64,000 bases of DNA from Candidatus Nitrotoga sp. CP45 (GTDB lineage: Bacteria > Pseudomonadota > Gammaproteobacteria > Burkholderiales > Gallionellaceae), in NCBI GenBank assembly GCA_945874105.1, contig CAMCFJ010000001.1, positions 1 through 64,000 of the forward strand. The letters run 5' to 3'. The stretch's first letter is position 1. Each line of letters opens with the position of its first letter. The notes below the pieces were generated by a model. The model saw only the letters and a program-made list of their open reading frames with translations, ran no database searches and was not told the origin of the DNA. Shown here in pieces: positions 47,132 through 55,917 of this stretch. The position numbers were made by a program, and so were the translations under genes.

Positions 47132-47965
47132 CTACTGTGTGGCGGCGTGGATGCTTCCAGTAATGTCCTTGCCCACGCCACGGTAACCGGTAAAGCGACC
47201 GGATGAATCGAACATGGGCTCTCCGCTAATCATAAAATACTGCTGTGAACCTTCTGGATTATGTCGTCTGTAGACGAAATCCAGGAAAGGTCGTCTGGCT
47301 GCTATATATCCTTCCAGTGTCGCCCGTTCTTCTTTATTCCAATGTGCTGCTTGAGTTTTAGTGGGTTCGGCAAGCAAGTCGTCAACTTCAATTCCGAGCA
47401 TCTCAAGAACCGGGCCGTAAATTTTGGTGAAATGTCCGGTCTCGTCTTGCTCCCAATACCAGTCAGACGACAGCTCGACCAGACGGCGAAAACGAGCCTC
47501 GCTTTCCCGCAATGCTGCGGTTCGTGCTTGCACAGTCTGCTCTAATAGCTTGTTGTCGCTTTCAATTTGTTTGTATAAAAGTCGTACTTCCAGCATGTTG
47601 TGGATACGTGTTTGTACTTCGGTCAGATCAAAAGGCTTGCTGATGAAATCTTTCGCACCGGCTTGTAACGCGTGCAGTTTGTGATCTGGCTGGGCAGTAA
47701 TCACAAGTACCGGGAGATAGCCACCGGTTTCGATTGTCTTCAAGCCTTCCAGTACCTGAAAGCCATCCATGCCAGGCATCTGCAAGTCGAGCAGAACCAG
47801 GTCATAGCGGATTTTGCGATACAACTCGCAGACTTCATAGGGATTCTGCGTCGATGCAATGCGCGTATAGCCAGCGCTACGTAGTATTTCCTCCAGTAGA
47901 TGTATATTAGCCTCCTGATCGTCAACGATCAGGAGGTTGGCGTTAAAAATATCAGACCTAAGCAT
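47132..47965 (-). CDS. Response regulator with receiver and PAS domains
   Basis: A 277-residue soluble signalling protein. Residues ~9-125 form a receiver: acidic pair in LLIVDDQEANIHLLEEIL, phosphoacceptor Asp in LVLLDLQMPGMDGFQVLEG, Thr in VLVITAQPDHK and Lys in KDFISKPFDLTEVQ. A coiled-coil (EQTVQARTAALRESEARF) leads to one PAS/PAC domain ending YRGVGKDITGS. There is no DNA-binding, GGDEF or kinase output, so it must work by binding another protein or is a single-domain adaptor. It lies 250 bp after a Crp/Fnr gene on the same strand, and no histidine kinase is adjacent. Confidence 0.9.
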   Translation of the reverse strand: MLRSDIFNANLLIVDDQEANIHLLEEILRSAGYTRIASTQNPYEVCELYRKIRYDLVLLDLQMPGMDGFQVLEGLKTIETGGYLPVLVITAQPDHKLHALQAGAKDFISKPFDLTEVQTRIHNMLEVRLLYKQIESDNKLLEQTVQARTAALRESEARFRRLVELSSDWYWEQDETGHFTKIYGPVLEMLGIEVDDLLAEPTKTQAAHWNKEERATLEGYIAARRPFLDFVYRRHNPEGSQQYFMISGEPMFDSSGRFTGYRGVGKDITGSIHAATQ

Positions 47966-48215
47966 AATTTAAGAATACCTTTAAGAATCAACCATAAAAT
48001 ACCAACACAAACGCACCCTTCGTGAAGGGGAAATATTGACCATAAGGAAAAATATCACTTGCGCTGCCTATCGTCTGTGCGTTTACACACATTAGGAATT
48101 TACCGCTGCAACGGGTGATTTGATCTTTCCATCATGATCGCAAGGCTTGCAGATTTAGCGCTGAGAACTCCTCAAGGATTTAAATTCTGGTGAATTAAAA
48201 TAATGCAAGTGGGTT

Positions 48216-48974
48216 TCATTTTTTACTGACCCCTTGAGAATGTGAGTGTCCGGTGGTTGTGTATGTTGAAAATAAGCAATCAAATTCTTTCTTGGCCACC
48301 TGATAACACTCGCAAGAAAGAGTTTCCAATCCAGATCGATCAAGAACTGTAATGTGCCCACAGCGATAGTTAATAAAGCCAGCATGTTTCAAATTTCCGG
48401 CGGCTTCCGTGATGCCTTCGCGGCGCACGCCAAGCATGCTGGCAATCAATTCCTGCGTCATGACTAACTCATTTGAGGTCAGCCGATCAATGGTTATTAA
48501 CAGCCAGCGGCAAAGCTGCTGTTCGATTGAATGGTGTCTATTGCATGCTGCTATCAGAGACATCTGTGTGATTAGCGCTTGAATATAAAGCAGTGATAAG
48601 CCATGCAGCGATTCAGCGCGATTGAATTCCTGTAGCGCTACTCCGGCTTTTATGCGGTAACCGCAGCCGCCAGTCTGCACAATTGCCCGGCTAGGCGTGG
48701 CTGCGCCACCCATGAAAAGCGAAACACCCAGTACGCCTTCATTGCCTACCCCTGCAATTTCAGTTGAAGCGCCATCCCCCATGGTGTATTGCAGAGACAC
48801 GATGGCAGTCGTGGGGAACCAGACATGTTGCAACCGATCACCGGATTCATAGAGGATGCTACCAAGTTGCATCTGGACAAGCTCCAGATGCGGCTTCAAG
48901 CGTTCAAATTCATCTGCTTGCATAGCTGCAAGGAGATGGTTGTGGATTGTTTCCTGTAAAAAGGTAATGGACAT
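48216..48974 (-). CDS. Crp/Fnr family transcription regulator
   Basis: A 252-residue regulator. The N-terminal cyclic-nucleotide-binding-like barrel (residues ~20-140) includes LGSILYESGDRLQHVWFPTT and a GNEGVLGVSLFMGG phosphate-binding-cassette-like loop without the classic Arg-Glu pair, so cAMP binding is doubtful. No Fnr-type N-terminal cysteine cluster is seen. The C-terminal winged helix has TQELIASMLGVRREGITEAA, the recognition helix region, and RCGHITVLDRSGLE. This fits the Crp subgroup frequent in betaproteobacteria whose effectors are unknown. A 7-bp inverted repeat upstream could serve as its operator. The C-terminal ~20 residues after the HTH are Ser/His-rich and unassigned. Confidence 0.9.
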   Translation of the reverse strand: MSITFLQETIHNHLLAAMQADEFERLKPHLELVQMQLGSILYESGDRLQHVWFPTTAIVSLQYTMGDGASTEIAGVGNEGVLGVSLFMGGAATPSRAIVQTGGCGYRIKAGVALQEFNRAESLHGLSLLYIQALITQMSLIAACNRHHSIEQQLCRWLLITIDRLTSNELVMTQELIASMLGVRREGITEAAGNLKHAGFINYRCGHITVLDRSGLETLSCECYQVAKKEFDCLFSTYTTTGHSHSQGVSKK

Positions 48975-49363
48975 AAGCAGCTTATTAAAATATTTGAAAT
49001 TTTATAGGCACACTCCGCTAATTAAATAATTAGTGGAAATCCATAGTTAAAGCTAATGGCTTAAGTTGCGTTCGATACCGCAAAGACCGTACATGCGCCA
49101 GATAGTAATTTACACGTTGGCGCTTAGTGCCAGATTCGAACACGTCAAGGAACAGGAAAACGTTTAAATGATAGCGTAATTACAACGAAGGTTAAAGCGT
49201 TAGTTTTTAATGAGTTTACGCTGAAATCTACCGGGATAAATTTCAAAATCTACTTAAGGTATCGTTCAATTAAGCAGCTTTGTGAGTTCCGGTCCGATGT
49301 TAATAAGACCCGATTAGTGCTTCCCCGGCAACCTCTCGTCAGCAGAAATCAACTATTCGTCTT
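48975..49363. other. 389-bp intergenic region with a palindrome
   Basis: The region holds the promoter side of the Crp/Fnr gene. CTAATTA-AA-TAATTAG at 49018-49033 is a perfect 7-bp inverted repeat 43 bp upstream of the start codon and could be an operator. No ORF is supported. The right end runs into the broken 5' end of the truncated lyase copy. Confidence 0.45.
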
Positions 49364-50592
49364 ATATTTTAGCTACGGGTATTGACCTTATGAAATGGCC
49401 CGTCTATGGCAAGTTTGGCGATACGCAGATCGCGCAATATGCACCGATATCCACTCCTTCTACGGCTTGGTTACGTGGCTCATTTGGTGACGGTGTAGCA
49501 GATAGTTACTACTATCGTGGATATGCTTTCGATCAGTATCGGCTATTTGCAAAACTCACCGGCAAGCCTTCCGACGAATGGTACTGGAGAGCAGGAACGG
49601 CATCCGTGCCAATTGGTACCGCTATTCCAGCAATCAACTTCATGATGCTTGGGCTCAATCTCCCCACAGTAACCCCAGCAGCTCCAACGAACGACTCGTA
49701 CGCATTTGAGGATTCCGGGATCGCCGCACTGCACACGGCTACCGATGATCCTCTCCGCACCAGTGTCTTCTTCCGCTCCAGTCGATTGGGCGCACTCAAC
49801 CATTCCCATGCAGACAACAACGCTTTCACTTTTGTGTCAAAAGGCAAAGAAATACTAATTAGTGCTGGATACTATATGGATTACGGACAAGCCCATCATA
49901 AGATAGTTTCTCGTGCCACAAGATACAAGAACGCACTCACATTTGACGGCGGTATCGGACAAGCAGAGTCCACTCCTGCTCCTACAGCTCCAGGTGCTCC
50001 AGAGTTTTCAGCAGACACTCGCGGTCAACTCATCAACTACTTCGACAATGGTATCTGGGCAACCGTAACCGGCGATGCTACTCTGGCATATCGAGGACAC
50101 AATGCAGCAGCGGATACGTGGAAGAGTAAAGCCTGGACCCCCCTCCTCACAGAAGCAGATCGTACCGTAGTCTTCAATCGTGTTGAAAAGGTAGCCATCA
50201 TTTACGACTACGCTACCAGCGCCACCCCGCGACAATGGGAACTTAACTATCACACGATGTTGAACTCACCCTTCATCGTCAGTGGGGGAACCATAGAGAT
50301 CAACAACGCTCCCGGCAAAGCTTGCATCGACCATTACGGACTACCCGGCAGCTTTACTCAAACCACAGCGTTTGATGTTCCTCCAGAGGACCTCAATCTT
50401 CCCAATCAGAATCACGGACGATACACGGCTACAACAAAATCTAACGTACTCACTTCAGTTACTGTGATTCGTGAGGATTGCCGCATTCTTCCTGTCAATG
50501 TAACCTTCAGTGGTTCCAGCGCATCGGTTTCTTTGAACAATGCTAGTCCAATCACCTTTGACAAGAAAACCGTTGAAGTACCCGCAATTTAA
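49364..50592 (+). pseudogene. Truncated copy of the heparinase-II/III-like lyase
   Basis: This is a 5'-truncated duplicate of the gene at 51261-54347. Homology to the full protein begins at about 49372 (ATGIDLMKWPVYGKFGDTQ against VTGIDLTKWPVFGKYGDTQ) and runs to the stop. It lacks the signal peptide, PKD-like and TIG domains and the catalytic alpha/alpha barrel. A 400-codon frame remains open from an internal ATG at 49390, with no ribosome site. It keeps the beta-sandwich part with LNHSHADNNAFTFVSKGKEI. The frame is intact, so loss may be recent, or the fragment serves as a donor for gene conversion: its last ~450 bp is almost identical to the full copy. Confidence 0.75.
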
Positions 50593-50609
50593 TAGTTCGT
50601 ATTAGATTC

Positions 50610-50642
50610 ACACAAAAACCCGCACTAAGCGGGTTTTTGTGT
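50610..50642 (+). terminator. Terminator of the truncated lyase copy
   Basis: ACACAAAAACCCGC, loop ACTAA, GCGGGTTTTTGTGT: long perfect stem with T-run, 18 bp after the stop codon. It resembles the terminator of the full copy at 54364, showing that the duplicated segment included it. Confidence 0.9.
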
Positions 50643-51164
50643 ATGTAGAGCCTCCAACAGCAAGTGTGCTTGAGCAATACGTCTGGTGGCAGGAACAATG
50701 CTGTCGGGTATTTTCTCGGATTAACGCGGAATCAGCGTGCTGTCGATGATCAGATTAAGCGTCTCCATGTGGGGACAAGGTAACAAATTGATTTTAATAA
50801 TATATGAATGATAACTTGATTATAACTGTCTCTAAATGAAGACAGATTTCCAAGTTTTATTGATAACAATATTGCAAATTAATATTTCTTTTTAAATATT
50901 AAATTGAGATTACTCGCTGTAACCCTTGCCATAGAGCAGGAAATCCAACAATCCTGAATTTCAAAATGATCTGTGGCATAAAACTTGCTTGGATAATAGT
51001 GGGCTGTAAATGGTTTGTTAGGTAAAGGTATGTGGCTCAGAGGGTGATTGGCGGTGATTTTTTAAAATTGCCCTAAAGTTGGGCTAAATTTTTTTGCAGT
51101 CAGCAAGGTTGCCCCCATATAAAAACGAATAAGGACGATGCCCCATATTCAAAATGTAGCTGGA
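50643..51164. other. 522-bp spacer between the two lyase copies
   Basis: No gene can be supported. Around 50715-50790 the minus strand reads METLNLIIDSTLIPR and stops, which may be the end of a lost gene; I do not recognise it. From 50790 to 50930 the sequence is strongly AT-rich. Confidence 0.4.
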
Positions 51165-51240
51165 ACAAGAAGCGTTGTTTAGGCAACGCATATTCAGAAT
51201 TCCAGTCCGTAGTTCAAACGCACCGGCCTTAGCCAGTGGT
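51165..51240 (+). mobile_element. Second, decayed IS200/IS605-type right end
   Basis: This matches the IS end at 31396-31463 in order: GCGTTG-TTTAGG-CAACGC (51172-51189), CCAGTCCGTAGTTCAAA (51202-51218), and CACCGGC-CTTA-GCCAGTG (51221-51238). In the first hairpin both arms differ from the other copy by paired changes, keeping the stem. Upstream, the transposase part is too decayed to translate. It ends 20 bp before the full lyase start codon. Confidence 0.7.
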
Positions 51241-51260
51241 TATCAAGTACAGGAGTATCC

Positions 51261-54200
51261 ATGAAAAACATAATTAGATTTCGGACTGTTATTACCAGTC
51301 TGGCCATCGTATCTTGCATGATCGCATTTGGCGCTGAAGCACACGCAACGACGAACATCTTGGCAGCAGCAACTCTTGATCCTGTGTCTATACCAACTAC
51401 AATATCGGCAACTCCTTCAGTAAGGGATCGCACAGTATCTTTATATGGTTCTGTCAGCGCACCGTCAGTCAGTAGTACTTGGACTGTCTTGGTAAACTGG
51501 GGAGATGGATCAGTAGCATCCACTGTGCCCGTATACCCCGGTAGAACAAGTCAAAGTGGTGACTGGTATAGCTCCCACACCTATGCTTCTTCAGGGATCT
51601 ATACGGTAAAGGCATCACTGATGAATGCAAGTGTAGTTCTAGCAACGACTACAACCTCTGCTACCATCAACAGTCCTGCACCAGCCCTGACTTCAATCTC
51701 TCCGGTAAGCAAAGTATCAGGAGGCGCTGCCTTCCCGCTTACTCTCACAGGATCAAACTTTGGTACCAACTCAATAGTGAAGTGGAATGGTGTCAGTAAA
51801 ATCACGCATTACATAAGTAGTACAAAAATTACCGCAGACATTCTTGCGTCCGATATTGCAACCGCAGGAGCACCGGCGATAGCTGCATTCACCCCATTAC
51901 CTGGAGGCGGAACATCTGCATCAAAGACGTTTACAGTGACGGCAGCACCAACGCCGATACCTAACACGACAAAATTAACAGGAAATCCATCTGCTTTTAG
52001 CGGTGGAGCAACAGCCGGATGTACACCGCACTTGTCCACTGATTGGATCGATGCCACTGATTGGAGTGCACGATTATTGACTCCAACAGATTGCGCAATT
52101 GTCAAGATCACGACACCTGTTTTTTCATGGAAACAAGTTTATGGTCGCAATCTGAGCATCCCTTGGAACTTTACCCTTCGCAATGCTTCCAATGTTGTCA
52201 TTTTTACCGCTACAAGTTCTTCTCCCCGTATCTTTTTGGATGACTATCCACTTGCCCCCGGAACATACTCTTGGCAAGTTAACTACACGAACACTGCAGG
52301 AGTTGTCCAAACAAGTGTATGGCGTACCTTCTCCATCGCTCCCGATGCAATAACCTTCAAACTTCCTTCTGGAGAGACCTATGCTGCGATGGCGAAGGCA
52401 AAGCCAAGCCCTCGTATGTTGCCAACAGGATCAACCTTCGCAGGTATCGTAGCTTCCGCGAATGCAGGGGAACTCAAGAACCCCTACAGCGGTTTTCTGT
52501 GGCTCGCTAACAAGCTTCTTCCTTCCGCCATGCCCTCCGCACCCGCGATGAAAGTAGAAACAGACTTTCCGTCAAAACTTGAATACACGGCGTGGTTGAT
52601 GAAGATTACGCATTTGGTAGGCGACGAACACCAGGCAATCAACTACATCGCCTATGCAGGCAAGTTCACGGGCGACCCCAAATACAATACGGCAGCATTG
52701 GCGAGAATCATGTCACTTGCGATATGGCCTACGACCGGCCCGACGAGCGAAGCAATTAACGACCAGGCCAACCGTGAGATCTACGTTGCTCTCGCGGAAG
52801 GATTGGATCTGCTTGGCAGCAAGATGACGACTGCACAGCGTGCCACCGTCATTGCGGCAATCCGCGATCGAGTCGGGCAGACAATGGCTACGATAATAAA
52901 TCTTGATTATCAACCGTATAACTCACACCTTCTTGAGGTCAACAGAGCTGCAGTGCAAGCATTGACACTTACTGTTGGCGTTGAAAACTTCCCTGAAGCA
53001 CAGCAATGGCTGGCTCGCTCATGGGAAGCATGGCTCACTACAGCAGCTGTGTGGGGTGGCGCTGACGGCTCATGGGGGAACAGTGGTGCTTATGGTTGGT
53101 TTGCCATGATTCGCATGACCGAGCTGCTCGCCGAAGTCCGCTTGGTGACCGGGATTGATCTCACCAAGTGGCCAGTCTTTGGCAAATATGGTGATACACA
53201 GATCGCACAATACGCACCTATATATAGCCCCGTTACGGCTTTGTTGCGCGGCTCGTTTGGCGATGGCGTAGAAGATGCTAATTTCTACCGCGCTTATTCA
53301 AACACGACCTACCGTCTCTTCGCCAAATTAACTGGAAAGCCTTCTGACGAATGGTACTGGAGAGTGGGGACGACCGCTGTGCCGACAGGAAATGCTATTC
53401 AGGCAACTAATTTTCTGATGCTTGGTCTCGGTTTGCCCGTAGTCACTCCTGCGGCACCAACAAAAAACTCCTATGCATTCGAAGATTCCGGAATTGCCGC
53501 ACTTCATACGAGCACGGCTGATCCTCTTCGCACCAGCTTGTTCTTCCGCTCAAGTCGATTGGGCTCATTGAACCATTCTCATGCCGACAGCAATGCCTTC
53601 ACTTTTGTTTCAAAAGGCAAAGAGATCCTCATCAGTGGTGGCTACTACCCATACTTCGCCTCACCACATCATCTTCAGGTTGGCCGTGCTACGAGGTATA
53701 AAAATGCGCTCACGTTTGACGGTGGCATAGGACAATCAGAACCCACCTCTGCTCCAACAGCTCCAGGCGCTCCAGAGTTTTCAGCGGAAGCTCGTGGCCA
53801 GCTCATCAATTACTTCGACAATGGAATCTGGTCTGCAGTTACGGGCGATGCAACGTTGGCATACCGTGGATTGAATACAGTCTCGAAAATTTGGACCCCC
53901 CTCCTCACAGAAGCAGATCGTACCGTAGTCTTCAATCGTGTCGAGAAGGTAGCCATCATCTATGACTACGCTACCAGCGCAACGTCAAGACAGTGGGAAC
54001 TTAACTATCACACGATGTTGAACTCTCCCTTCATCGTCAGTGGGGGAACCATAGAGATCAACAACGCTCCCGGCAAAGCTTGCATTGATCATTACGGACT
54101 ACCCGGCAGCTTTACTCAAACCACAGCGTTTGATGTTGCTCCCGAGACCGCTCTTCCCAACCAGAACCACGGACGATACACGGCTACAACAAAATCTAAC

Positions 54201-54347
54201 GTACTCACTTCAGTTACTGTGATTCGTGAGGATTGCCGCATTCTTCCTGTCAATGTAACCTTCAGTGGTTCCAGCGCATCTGTTTCGTTGAACAATGCTA
54301 GTCCAATCACCTTCGACAAGAAAACCGTTCAAGTACCTATAATTTAA
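51261..54347 (+). CDS. Secreted heparinase-II/III-like polysaccharide lyase
   Basis: A 1028-residue exported protein. A Sec signal peptide (MKNIIRFRTVITSLAIVSCM ... AHA) is followed by a PKD-like Ig domain (NWGDGSVASTVPVY, SSHTYASSGIYTVKA), an IPT/TIG domain (SPVSKVSGGAAFPLTLTGSN), and an Ig-like heparinase N-terminal domain ending near IAPDAITFKLPSGE. The alpha/alpha toroid covers ~380-640 (NREIYVALAEGLDLLGSK, HLLEVNRAAVQALTL, WGGADGSWGNSGAYGWFAM). The beta-sandwich follows with SSRLGSLNHSHADSNAFTFV, which holds the conserved His/Asn, and SGGYYP. Such enzymes cleave uronate-containing glycans by beta-elimination. Substrate is unknown. An AGGAG box precedes the ATG; a terminator follows. Confidence 0.85.
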   Translation: MKNIIRFRTVITSLAIVSCMIAFGAEAHATTNILAAATLDPVSIPTTISATPSVRDRTVSLYGSVSAPSVSSTWTVLVNWGDGSVASTVPVYPGRTSQSGDWYSSHTYASSGIYTVKASLMNASVVLATTTTSATINSPAPALTSISPVSKVSGGAAFPLTLTGSNFGTNSIVKWNGVSKITHYISSTKITADILASDIATAGAPAIAAFTPLPGGGTSASKTFTVTAAPTPIPNTTKLTGNPSAFSGGATAGCTPHLSTDWIDATDWSARLLTPTDCAIVKITTPVFSWKQVYGRNLSIPWNFTLRNASNVVIFTATSSSPRIFLDDYPLAPGTYSWQVNYTNTAGVVQTSVWRTFSIAPDAITFKLPSGETYAAMAKAKPSPRMLPTGSTFAGIVASANAGELKNPYSGFLWLANKLLPSAMPSAPAMKVETDFPSKLEYTAWLMKITHLVGDEHQAINYIAYAGKFTGDPKYNTAALARIMSLAIWPTTGPTSEAINDQANREIYVALAEGLDLLGSKMTTAQRATVIAAIRDRVGQTMATIINLDYQPYNSHLLEVNRAAVQALTLTVGVENFPEAQQWLARSWEAWLTTAAVWGGADGSWGNSGAYGWFAMIRMTELLAEVRLVTGIDLTKWPVFGKYGDTQIAQYAPIYSPVTALLRGSFGDGVEDANFYRAYSNTTYRLFAKLTGKPSDEWYWRVGTTAVPTGNAIQATNFLMLGLGLPVVTPAAPTKNSYAFEDSGIAALHTSTADPLRTSLFFRSSRLGSLNHSHADSNAFTFVSKGKEILISGGYYPYFASPHHLQVGRATRYKNALTFDGGIGQSEPTSAPTAPGAPEFSAEARGQLINYFDNGIWSAVTGDATLAYRGLNTVSKIWTPLLTEADRTVVFNRVEKVAIIYDYATSATSRQWELNYHTMLNSPFIVSGGTIEINNAPGKACIDHYGLPGSFTQTTAFDVAPETALPNQNHGRYTATTKSNVLTSVTVIREDCRILPVNVTFSGSSASVSLNNASPITFDKKTVQVPII

Positions 54348-54363
54348 TAGTTCGTATTAGGTT

Positions 54364-54398
54364 CACAAAAAAACCCGCATATTGCGGGTTTTTTTGTG
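54364..54398 (+). terminator. Terminator of the full-length lyase gene
   Basis: CACAAAAAAACCCGC, loop ATATT, GCGGGTTTTTTTGTG: strong hairpin with T-run 17 bp beyond the stop codon. Confidence 0.9.
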
Positions 54399-54472
54399 TG
54401 TAGAAGGGAGGAGGGAAAACGGTCAGGCGATCAATCAGACTAATACGAGCCCCTGTAGATTAAGTCTGTATT

Positions 54473-54871
54473 TCACTTTAGCACCACCACAAATATCAAG
54501 CTAGATAGAGCGATGCCCAGTAGCAAACACACATAGATCAAAATTTTGATTCGAACTCGAAAAACTTCGATCGCATTAACTACGCGTGCATTTTGTTCGG
54601 CAAGTGATTTGATTAATTTGGCTGATGAGTTCTGTTCAGAATTCAGTTCAACGATCTTCGCCTGAAGATGACGAACGTGACTGTTCAGATTTGCGAGTCC
54701 TTCAGCATCGAATGAAACAGTCGTTGGTGAACTGTCATCGATAGGCTGGCTGTTTGCTTCAGCTTTTGCCGCAGTAAAAAGACGTTTTGCGCCTTTAACC
54801 ATGCCCGGCGCAGCTTCCAATACATCTTTCCAGGGGATGACTTTCAGTGCGCTAATCCAACCTATAGCCAA
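54473..54871 (-). CDS. Coiled-coil protein with C-terminal membrane anchor
   Basis: A 132-residue protein of unknown function. Translation probably starts at the TTG at 54869-54871, because AGAGGAG stands 8-9 nt before it. The first ~55 residues are mildly amphipathic (WKDVLEAAPGMVKGAKRLF). A heptad-rich coiled coil spans ~58-100 (LANLNSHVRHLQAKIVELN and AKLIKSLAEQNARVVNAIE). One membrane helix closes the chain (IKILIYVCLLLGIALSSLIF). The topology suggests a tail-anchored inner-membrane protein with a cytosolic coiled coil. It lies downstream of mutM on the same strand with a 230-bp gap. No known family was recognised. Confidence 0.75.
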   Translation of the reverse strand: MAIGWISALKVIPWKDVLEAAPGMVKGAKRLFTAAKAEANSQPIDDSSPTTVSFDAEGLANLNSHVRHLQAKIVELNSEQNSSAKLIKSLAEQNARVVNAIEVFRVRIKILIYVCLLLGIALSSLIFVVVLK

Positions 54872-55101
54872 GATTTTTTCTCCTCTTTCGTATATGTAAC
54901 GACATGATCAACCAGCCCACAAGTTATGAAGCTGACTAATAAATTACTCCGGTGCAGGTGACTTTCCCAATGGTTATTAAAAAAAAGCAATATGATATTG
55001 ACCCACAAAGCCAAAAAATGTTTCATGCAAATTTTTCTTCTTCGACGATCTGAAAGCAGCATTTCGACATGAGAACGCCGGAGTGATAGGGAGGGTACTG
55101 A

Positions 55102-55917
55102 TTATTTCTGGCATTGTATGCAATAAAAACTTGATCGCTGTCCTTGCCGAATCTGTTTGATGGGTGTGTTGCATGCACGGCAAGCCTCGGCCGCGCGGCC
55201 ATACACCCAGTAGTGCTGCTGGAAATAGCCAGGATTGCCATCGCTGCCCACGAAATCGCGCAGGCTGCTGCCGCCTAATGCAATGGATTCCGTCAACGTT
55301 TCTTTGATCGTGTGTACCAATCGCGCGCAACGCGGTCGACTAAGTTTTGCGGCGGGTAGTTGCGGGCGGATACCCGCGCGGAATAGAGCTTCATTGGCGT
55401 AGATGTTGCCGACGCCTACTACCAGATGATGATCCATGATGACCAGCTTGATTGCGGCATTGCGATTGCGTATCGCACCATAAAGATATTCGGCATTAAA
55501 GTTATTCTCCAGCGGTTCCACTCCAAGCTTCGACAACAGTGGATGCTGTGCGGGGTCGCCTTCATGCCACAGCACTGCGCCAAAACGGCGCGGATCACGG
55601 AGCCGCATAAGCATTCCGTTGGCCAGCATTAAATCGAAGTGATCGTGCTTTTCTGCCGCTACGTCCGCAGACAAAATGCGCAAGCTGCCGGACATGCCGA
55701 GGTGGAGGATGAGCGTACCGCTGTCGCATTTGATCAACAAATATTTGGCACGGCGATGCAGTGCGTGAATTGTCTGGTCATGCAAGATGGTGGCCAATTG
55801 CCTGGGGATAGCCCAGCGCAAGTGAGATGTTCGAATGACTACGTCCGCGATACGCTGACCGACCAAATGCGGCTCAAGTCCGCGCAGGGTCGTTTCGACC
55901 TCGGGTAGTTCAGGCAT
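55102..55917 (-). CDS. mutM: Formamidopyrimidine-DNA glycosylase
   Basis: MutM removes 8-oxoguanine and formamidopyrimidines and nicks the abasic site. The 271 residues have the N-terminal catalytic [17 protein letters not shown] (Pro2 nucleophile, Glu3), Lys in [13 protein letters not shown], the H2TH region [18 protein letters not shown], and the C-terminal zinc finger [20 protein letters not shown] with a second CxxC pair. All catalytic and zinc residues are present. The start is fixed by Pro2. The upstream small lipoprotein gene is 39 bp away on the same strand. Confidence 0.97.

Follow-up and report, generated by a model that had tools for sequence, protein, structure and literature searches.

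Ectopic (interlocus) gene conversion is recognised by a sharp-edged local drop in synonymous divergence between two gene copies, by the absence of this drop from homologues, and by copies that are closer to each other within the patch than orthologues are. Silent cassettes of the pilS/pilE type, from which several variants arise in a population, are another system with which a truncated copy beside a complete one can be compared. Most estimates of conversion tracts lie between 50 and several hundred bp, mainly in yeast and mammals, and the usual identity is 80%, while conversion below 80% is possible at a low rate (PMC3924818, in extract). For between-strain exchange in E. coli, the mean tract was estimated at 50 bp (PMC2617782, in extract). 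PL15 lyases act on uronic-acid polymers, have a His and a Tyr at the catalytic positions and combine an alpha/alpha toroid with beta-sheet domains; for the exolytic PL15 lyase Atu3025 (structure 3a0o), His311 and Tyr365 are the proposed catalytic residues (PMC11921355, in extract).

Here, we describe a tandem lyase pair in a 64,000-nt stretch of the Candidatus Nitrotoga sp. CP45 genome (the window). The lyase ORF A (49390-50592) is followed by a 0.67 kb gap and the full-length lyase gene B (51261-54347); A and B are the only lyase copies in this draft genome. The pair adjoins a minus-strand gene for a Crp-type regulator (48216-48974), for which HTH_Crp_2 scores above and cNMP_binding just under the respective cut-off. 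Since the ORF list holds glycosyltransferase-like and ABC-transporter-like genes at ~31-43 kb (functions assigned by eye), the setting looks like a polysaccharide cluster. The features are as follows.

49376..50592, plus strand: copy A, lyase truncated at its 5' end, with homology to B starting near residue 632
49376..50133, plus strand: diverged part of A, dS 1.39 vs B 53148-53891
50134..50649, plus strand: homogenised patch in A, 94% and 93% identity to B in two ungapped blocks
53892..54404, plus strand: homogenised patch in B, from the alignment to A
51261..54347, plus strand: copy B, full-length lyase gene, 1028 aa, PL15-like (Pfam and NCBIfam)
50221..50236, plus strand: diverged island in the patch, 6/16 columns differ (two-state segmentation)
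50379..50406, plus strand: diverged island in the patch with a 3-nt indel, 10/28 columns differ (two-state segmentation)
50609..50642, plus strand: terminator-like hairpin 3' of A (folding)
54365..54398, plus strand: terminator-like hairpin 3' of B (folding)
49147..49310, plus strand: small-ORF remnant, similar to a portion of the 103-aa ORF at L042 1391-1702 in a related genome
49314..49367, plus strand: element part, which continues further in the sister genome G015 and at G000:C2:1811-1896 (G000 being the window's genome)
50974..50988, plus strand: sigma-54-like -24/-12 sequence upstream of B, pattern TGGCA-N6-TTGC

The homology between A and B extends from about 49376/53148 to 50649/54404. 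Within the 397 codon pairs of their codon alignment (dS and dN by NG86), the 246 codons before 50134 show a pS of 0.632, a dS of 1.387 (bootstrap 0.99-2.17) and a dN of 0.157, i.e., this part is near saturation at synonymous sites, with ~72% of its columns identical. For the 151 codons from 50134 on, the respective values are a pS of 0.178, a dS of 0.204 (bootstrap 0.12-0.31) and a dN of 0.027, and the identity from 50134/53892 to past the terminators is about 93%. The preliminary description had reported a diverged shared part followed by an alike 3' patch that starts at a motif at these two positions, which the drop in dS from 1.39 to 0.20 bears out; the motif indeed lies at 50134 and 53892. 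A maximum chi-square scan, restricted to the 337 codon pairs without an amino-acid difference, places the breakpoint at codon 50128 (94/191 differing pairs before vs 18/146 after), a value that none of 10,000 shuffles reached. That is, A and B show a sharp-edged local drop in synonymous divergence. Both the window-wise profile and the recombination-type test had been proposed beforehand, with even divergence along both copies as the contrary outcome; the divergence is not even.

The same description called the patch almost identical. The copies are indeed strongly alike here, but the wording is slightly overstated: 31 of the 459 coding columns differ, the longest identical stretch measures 113 nt, and diverged islands interrupt the patch. 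A two-state segmentation of the whole alignment yields three low-divergence tracts within the patch (85, 142 and 173 columns) and one of 34 around the stop codon, separated in part by the two listed islands and a short third one (50580-50586); the method is sensitive to chance, since it also calls four stretches of 8-27 columns low in the 5' part. Over all columns, the differences in the patch are clustered (variance/mean ratio reached in 0/20,000 shuffles; longest run p 0.004), while over synonymous codons alone (18/145 changed) the clustering is not significant (p 0.12; longest run p 0.06). Several conversion tracts behind the islands are thus possible, suggested by all columns and not established by the synonymous codons alone; a single tract followed by mutation is likewise a possible origin of the pattern.

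The similarity reaches ~57 nt past the stop codons, through the hairpins. Similar terminator hairpins in both copies had been noted before, and both in fact fold well (z -5.85 and -6.43) inside the patch of ~93% identity. A consensus terminator scan lists 5 sites in the region (4.6 expected), neither hairpin among them. By eye, the two stems (50609-50642 vs 54365-54398) show an apparent compensatory change, namely C-G in A and A-T in B, and the loops differ as well.

With regard to the proteins, B carries an anchor-type repeat domain (residues 139-226), a DUF4962 domain (325-640) and a Hepar_II_III_C domain (733-917). Its best solved-structure match is the oligo-alginate lyase 3a0o, i.e., Atu3025 (phmmer E 4.2e-39), aligned over B residues 324-874. 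The printed alignment, with residues counted by eye, places His556 and Tyr611 of B opposite His311 and Tyr365, such that B has the PL15 pair by alignment and A does not. With the DUF4962 and Hepar_II_III_C matches and the 3a0o alignment, B may also have the alpha/alpha toroid and beta-sheet domains. In contrast to Atu3025, to which it is only distantly related, B has an extra N-terminal region with the repeat domain and another gene neighbourhood. We predict that B is probably an active PL15-like lyase.

Copy A opens at ATG 49390 and has no internal stop. Its domain content is Hepar_II_III_C only, without the DUF4962 part, and given its start at about B residue 632 it lacks both residues aligned with the catalytic pair. 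A convincing promoter for A was not found among the 8 promoter-like sites in 49000-54600 (7.3 expected by chance). Most likely, A is now a silent remnant. The still open frame is consistent with a late truncation, and the dN/dS of 0.11 in the 5' part indicates that A and B both evolved under purifying selection. Compared with five outgroups, the unique residues of A and B number 14 v 16, 15 v 14, 16 v 8, 16 v 7 and 18 v 11; the excess in A against 4/5 outgroups makes some early relaxation in A possible.

Upstream of A, the ORF homologous to the remnant 49147-49310 is open in the related genome (L042 1391-1702) and decayed by stop codons in the window, where the ~207 bp preceding the remnant are absent; the remnant may be of BON-domain identity. 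Upstream of B, 50761-50990 is 71% identical to an intergenic stretch of the related genome G010 (C46:7360-7585), which precedes a 240-aa ORF, presumably an exosortase-system acyltransferase. The sigma-54 -24/-12 consensus reads TGGCA-N6-TTGC; such a sequence is found in both stretches, as are two inverted repeats, which lie at 50761-50776 and 50827-50844 in the window. Across the own genome, the second repeat pattern matches exactly at this site alone and once more with a mismatch, which does not exceed the count for its reversed control. A PEP-CTERM gene with an RpoN promoter has been described (PMC9850573, in extract). An exosortase (PF09721) match is absent from the window's genome, while 13/19 genus genomes searched (own included) have one; the exosortase system may have disappeared, with a promoter of that type persisting in front of lyase B. 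The ~100 bp just upstream of B (51148-51248) recur with 76% identity near the end of the own contig C4 (L049 2753-2853).

Searches for relatives did not yield a near relative with either copy whole. An alignment query returned 78 loci; the best is only 50% identical, which is too far for synonymous polarity, such that 103 tail columns alone are usable for polarising the patch. With the B protein at E 0.001, 4/41 genomes match, i.e., the own one, G040 (lyase domains) and two of the genus (repeat domain only); a lyase-domain match is found in 0/18 other genus genomes. Order-wide, 14/399 genomes match at E 1e-20 (own included), the others with 27-32% identity over the lyase part, except for one match (46%) that falls in the repeat domain. 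Among plasmids, B matched 21 records, none of which reaches 60% identity (24.5 to 27.7% for the best 20 of 21). With A as the query, the genome collection showed 14 pattern matches, and viral contigs showed 2 for the 3' part of B; neither set contains a relative. A phage search with A had no match. As a side observation, the genome of L065 holds two linked lyase copies that are 68% identical over 736 aa.

We also compared nine related-genome loci (stretches of up to 8.2 kb) with the window around the lyase site. In 8/9, the left flank is matched only to ~49305-49310, whereas G015 (contig C78, L050) matches to 49367 and again from 54296 through the right flank, which makes it the only one of the nine that keeps both flanks. 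Its Crp-type neighbour is also the most similar among the genus genomes searched (90% identity). Between the flank matches, G015 holds ~60 bp followed by the last lyase codons and a hairpin, i.e., the lyase was most likely once present and lost by a deletion of its own. The hairpin of this scar is weaker (z -1.55; 17/200 shuffles fold as well). The comparison with sister strains proposed by the preliminary description thus reveals a shared site and a lyase scar. The left flank and the 60 bp of G015 continue the element also found at G000:C2:1811-1896, which the window exits at ~49362-49370 to enter lyase A, namely at the truncation junction. Since the junctions of window and sister differ, parsimony puts the truncation of A after the split from G015.

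In the 103 comparable columns of the scar, 86 are alike in all three sequences, 9 join B and G015, 3 join A and G015, 4 join A and B, and 1 differs in all. For the closeness of copies relative to orthologues, these are the comparable columns, and in them B groups with G015; their pattern shows no conversion after the split, which the tail of the patch most likely predates. Three neighbouring genes give a pooled dS between this genome and G015 of 0.165 (0.127-0.207; single genes 0.097 to 0.219), to which the patch dS of 0.204 is similar. The homogenisation is hence not very recent; its age is close to that of the split or slightly greater.

The best explanation, which we consider likely, is gene conversion between diverged tandem lyases followed by truncation of A. 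We infer a starting point of two diverged lyase genes in tandem, either paralogues or xenologues, with an ancestral A of full length. Homologous recombination without crossover would then have copied the 3' part and the hairpin from one copy to the other, presumably at, or somewhat before, the split from G015, and the diverged islands may stem from short tracts that were later or incomplete. After the split, a deletion would have fused the upstream element to about codon 632 of A and removed its 5' part. The step in divergence, its absence from homologues and the common site and lyase scar in G015 are observed; the direction of transfer, the recombination pathway, the full length of the ancestral A and the order of events are inferred. 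As in known ectopic conversion, the copies are linked, pass abruptly from near saturation to low dS at homologous positions and show tracts within tens to hundreds of bp; they differ in a 5' background identity of ~72%, below the usual 80% (PMC3924818, in extract).

A rather improbable alternative is that A is a foreign diverged allele taken up by transformation, integrated by homologous recombination where the 3' ends are alike and by end-joining on the left, such that the patch is the recombination anchor. The deep divergence, the missing convincing promoter, a left junction that is not common to G015 and the 0/18 genus genomes with a lyase-domain match are what such an import would leave. 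It requires, however, import and anchoring after the sister split, yet the tail of the patch in B groups with the G015 scar (9 v 3 and 4), and the patch dS is not near zero.

The preliminary description had left the choice between gene conversion and a recent partial re-duplication. The former is favoured by the sharp breakpoint and the failure of constraint as an explanation. The latter, a re-duplication of the 3' end of B beside an older fragment, we rejected as very unlikely: although the similarity stops just beyond the hairpin in both copies, the two copies switch at homologous positions while the frame stays open, as replacement by homologous recombination would produce and a simple insertion would not, and a patch dS of 0.2 is not recent.

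Strong constraint on the 3' part, at the protein, RNA or DNA level, could keep copies alike without recombination, and a well-folding hairpin 3' of the stop codon is part of the patch. We used 14 of the 78 fetched loci as distant homologues (L065 and L066 stem from one genome), and the listing of their 91 pairs covers the 10 whose 5' parts exceed 60% amino-acid identity. Their pS differs by at most 0.07 between 5' and 3' part, compared with 0.632 vs 0.170 for A/B, and their 3' amino-acid identity exceeds the 5' one in 4 pairs, by 0.11 at most, and falls below it in 6. Set against the 14 outgroups, A has a 3' amino-acid identity below the 5' value in 8 cases, the same in 4 and above it in 2; B has one below it in 10 and above it in 4. 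The large 3' drop is thus seen in A/B only and missing from the 10 listed pairs. Since the 3' and 5' parts of homologues vary to about the same extent, in synonymous sites and amino acids alike, constraint does not explain the patch and is extremely improbable as its cause. An RNA element was rejected as well, given no Rfam match at gathering threshold in 47900-55200.

An assembly or consensus artefact is equally hard to credit: this is a draft genome of 50 contigs used at assembly level, but identity never runs unbroken for more than 113 nt, and both tails have differences of their own and different flanks. We give next to no credence to a role of A as a permanent donor from which the C-terminal part of an expressed B is rewritten again and again, i.e., a small diversification device for a polysaccharide-active enzyme. 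Like a pilS/pilE-type silent cassette, A is truncated at its 5' end, lacks a convincing promoter and lies beside the full B with a common 3' end; there is, however, just a single cassette, repeated variation is not seen, and the truncation probably came later than the conversion.

Gene conversion between A and B thus concerns a known process in an ordinary gene pair and leaves current understanding unchanged. It provides a clear natural case between copies that are otherwise near synonymous saturation, for which a sister genome helps with the dating. It is also a warning, i.e., a tree built from the 3' ends of such genes would date their duplication incorrectly, placing it too close to the present.
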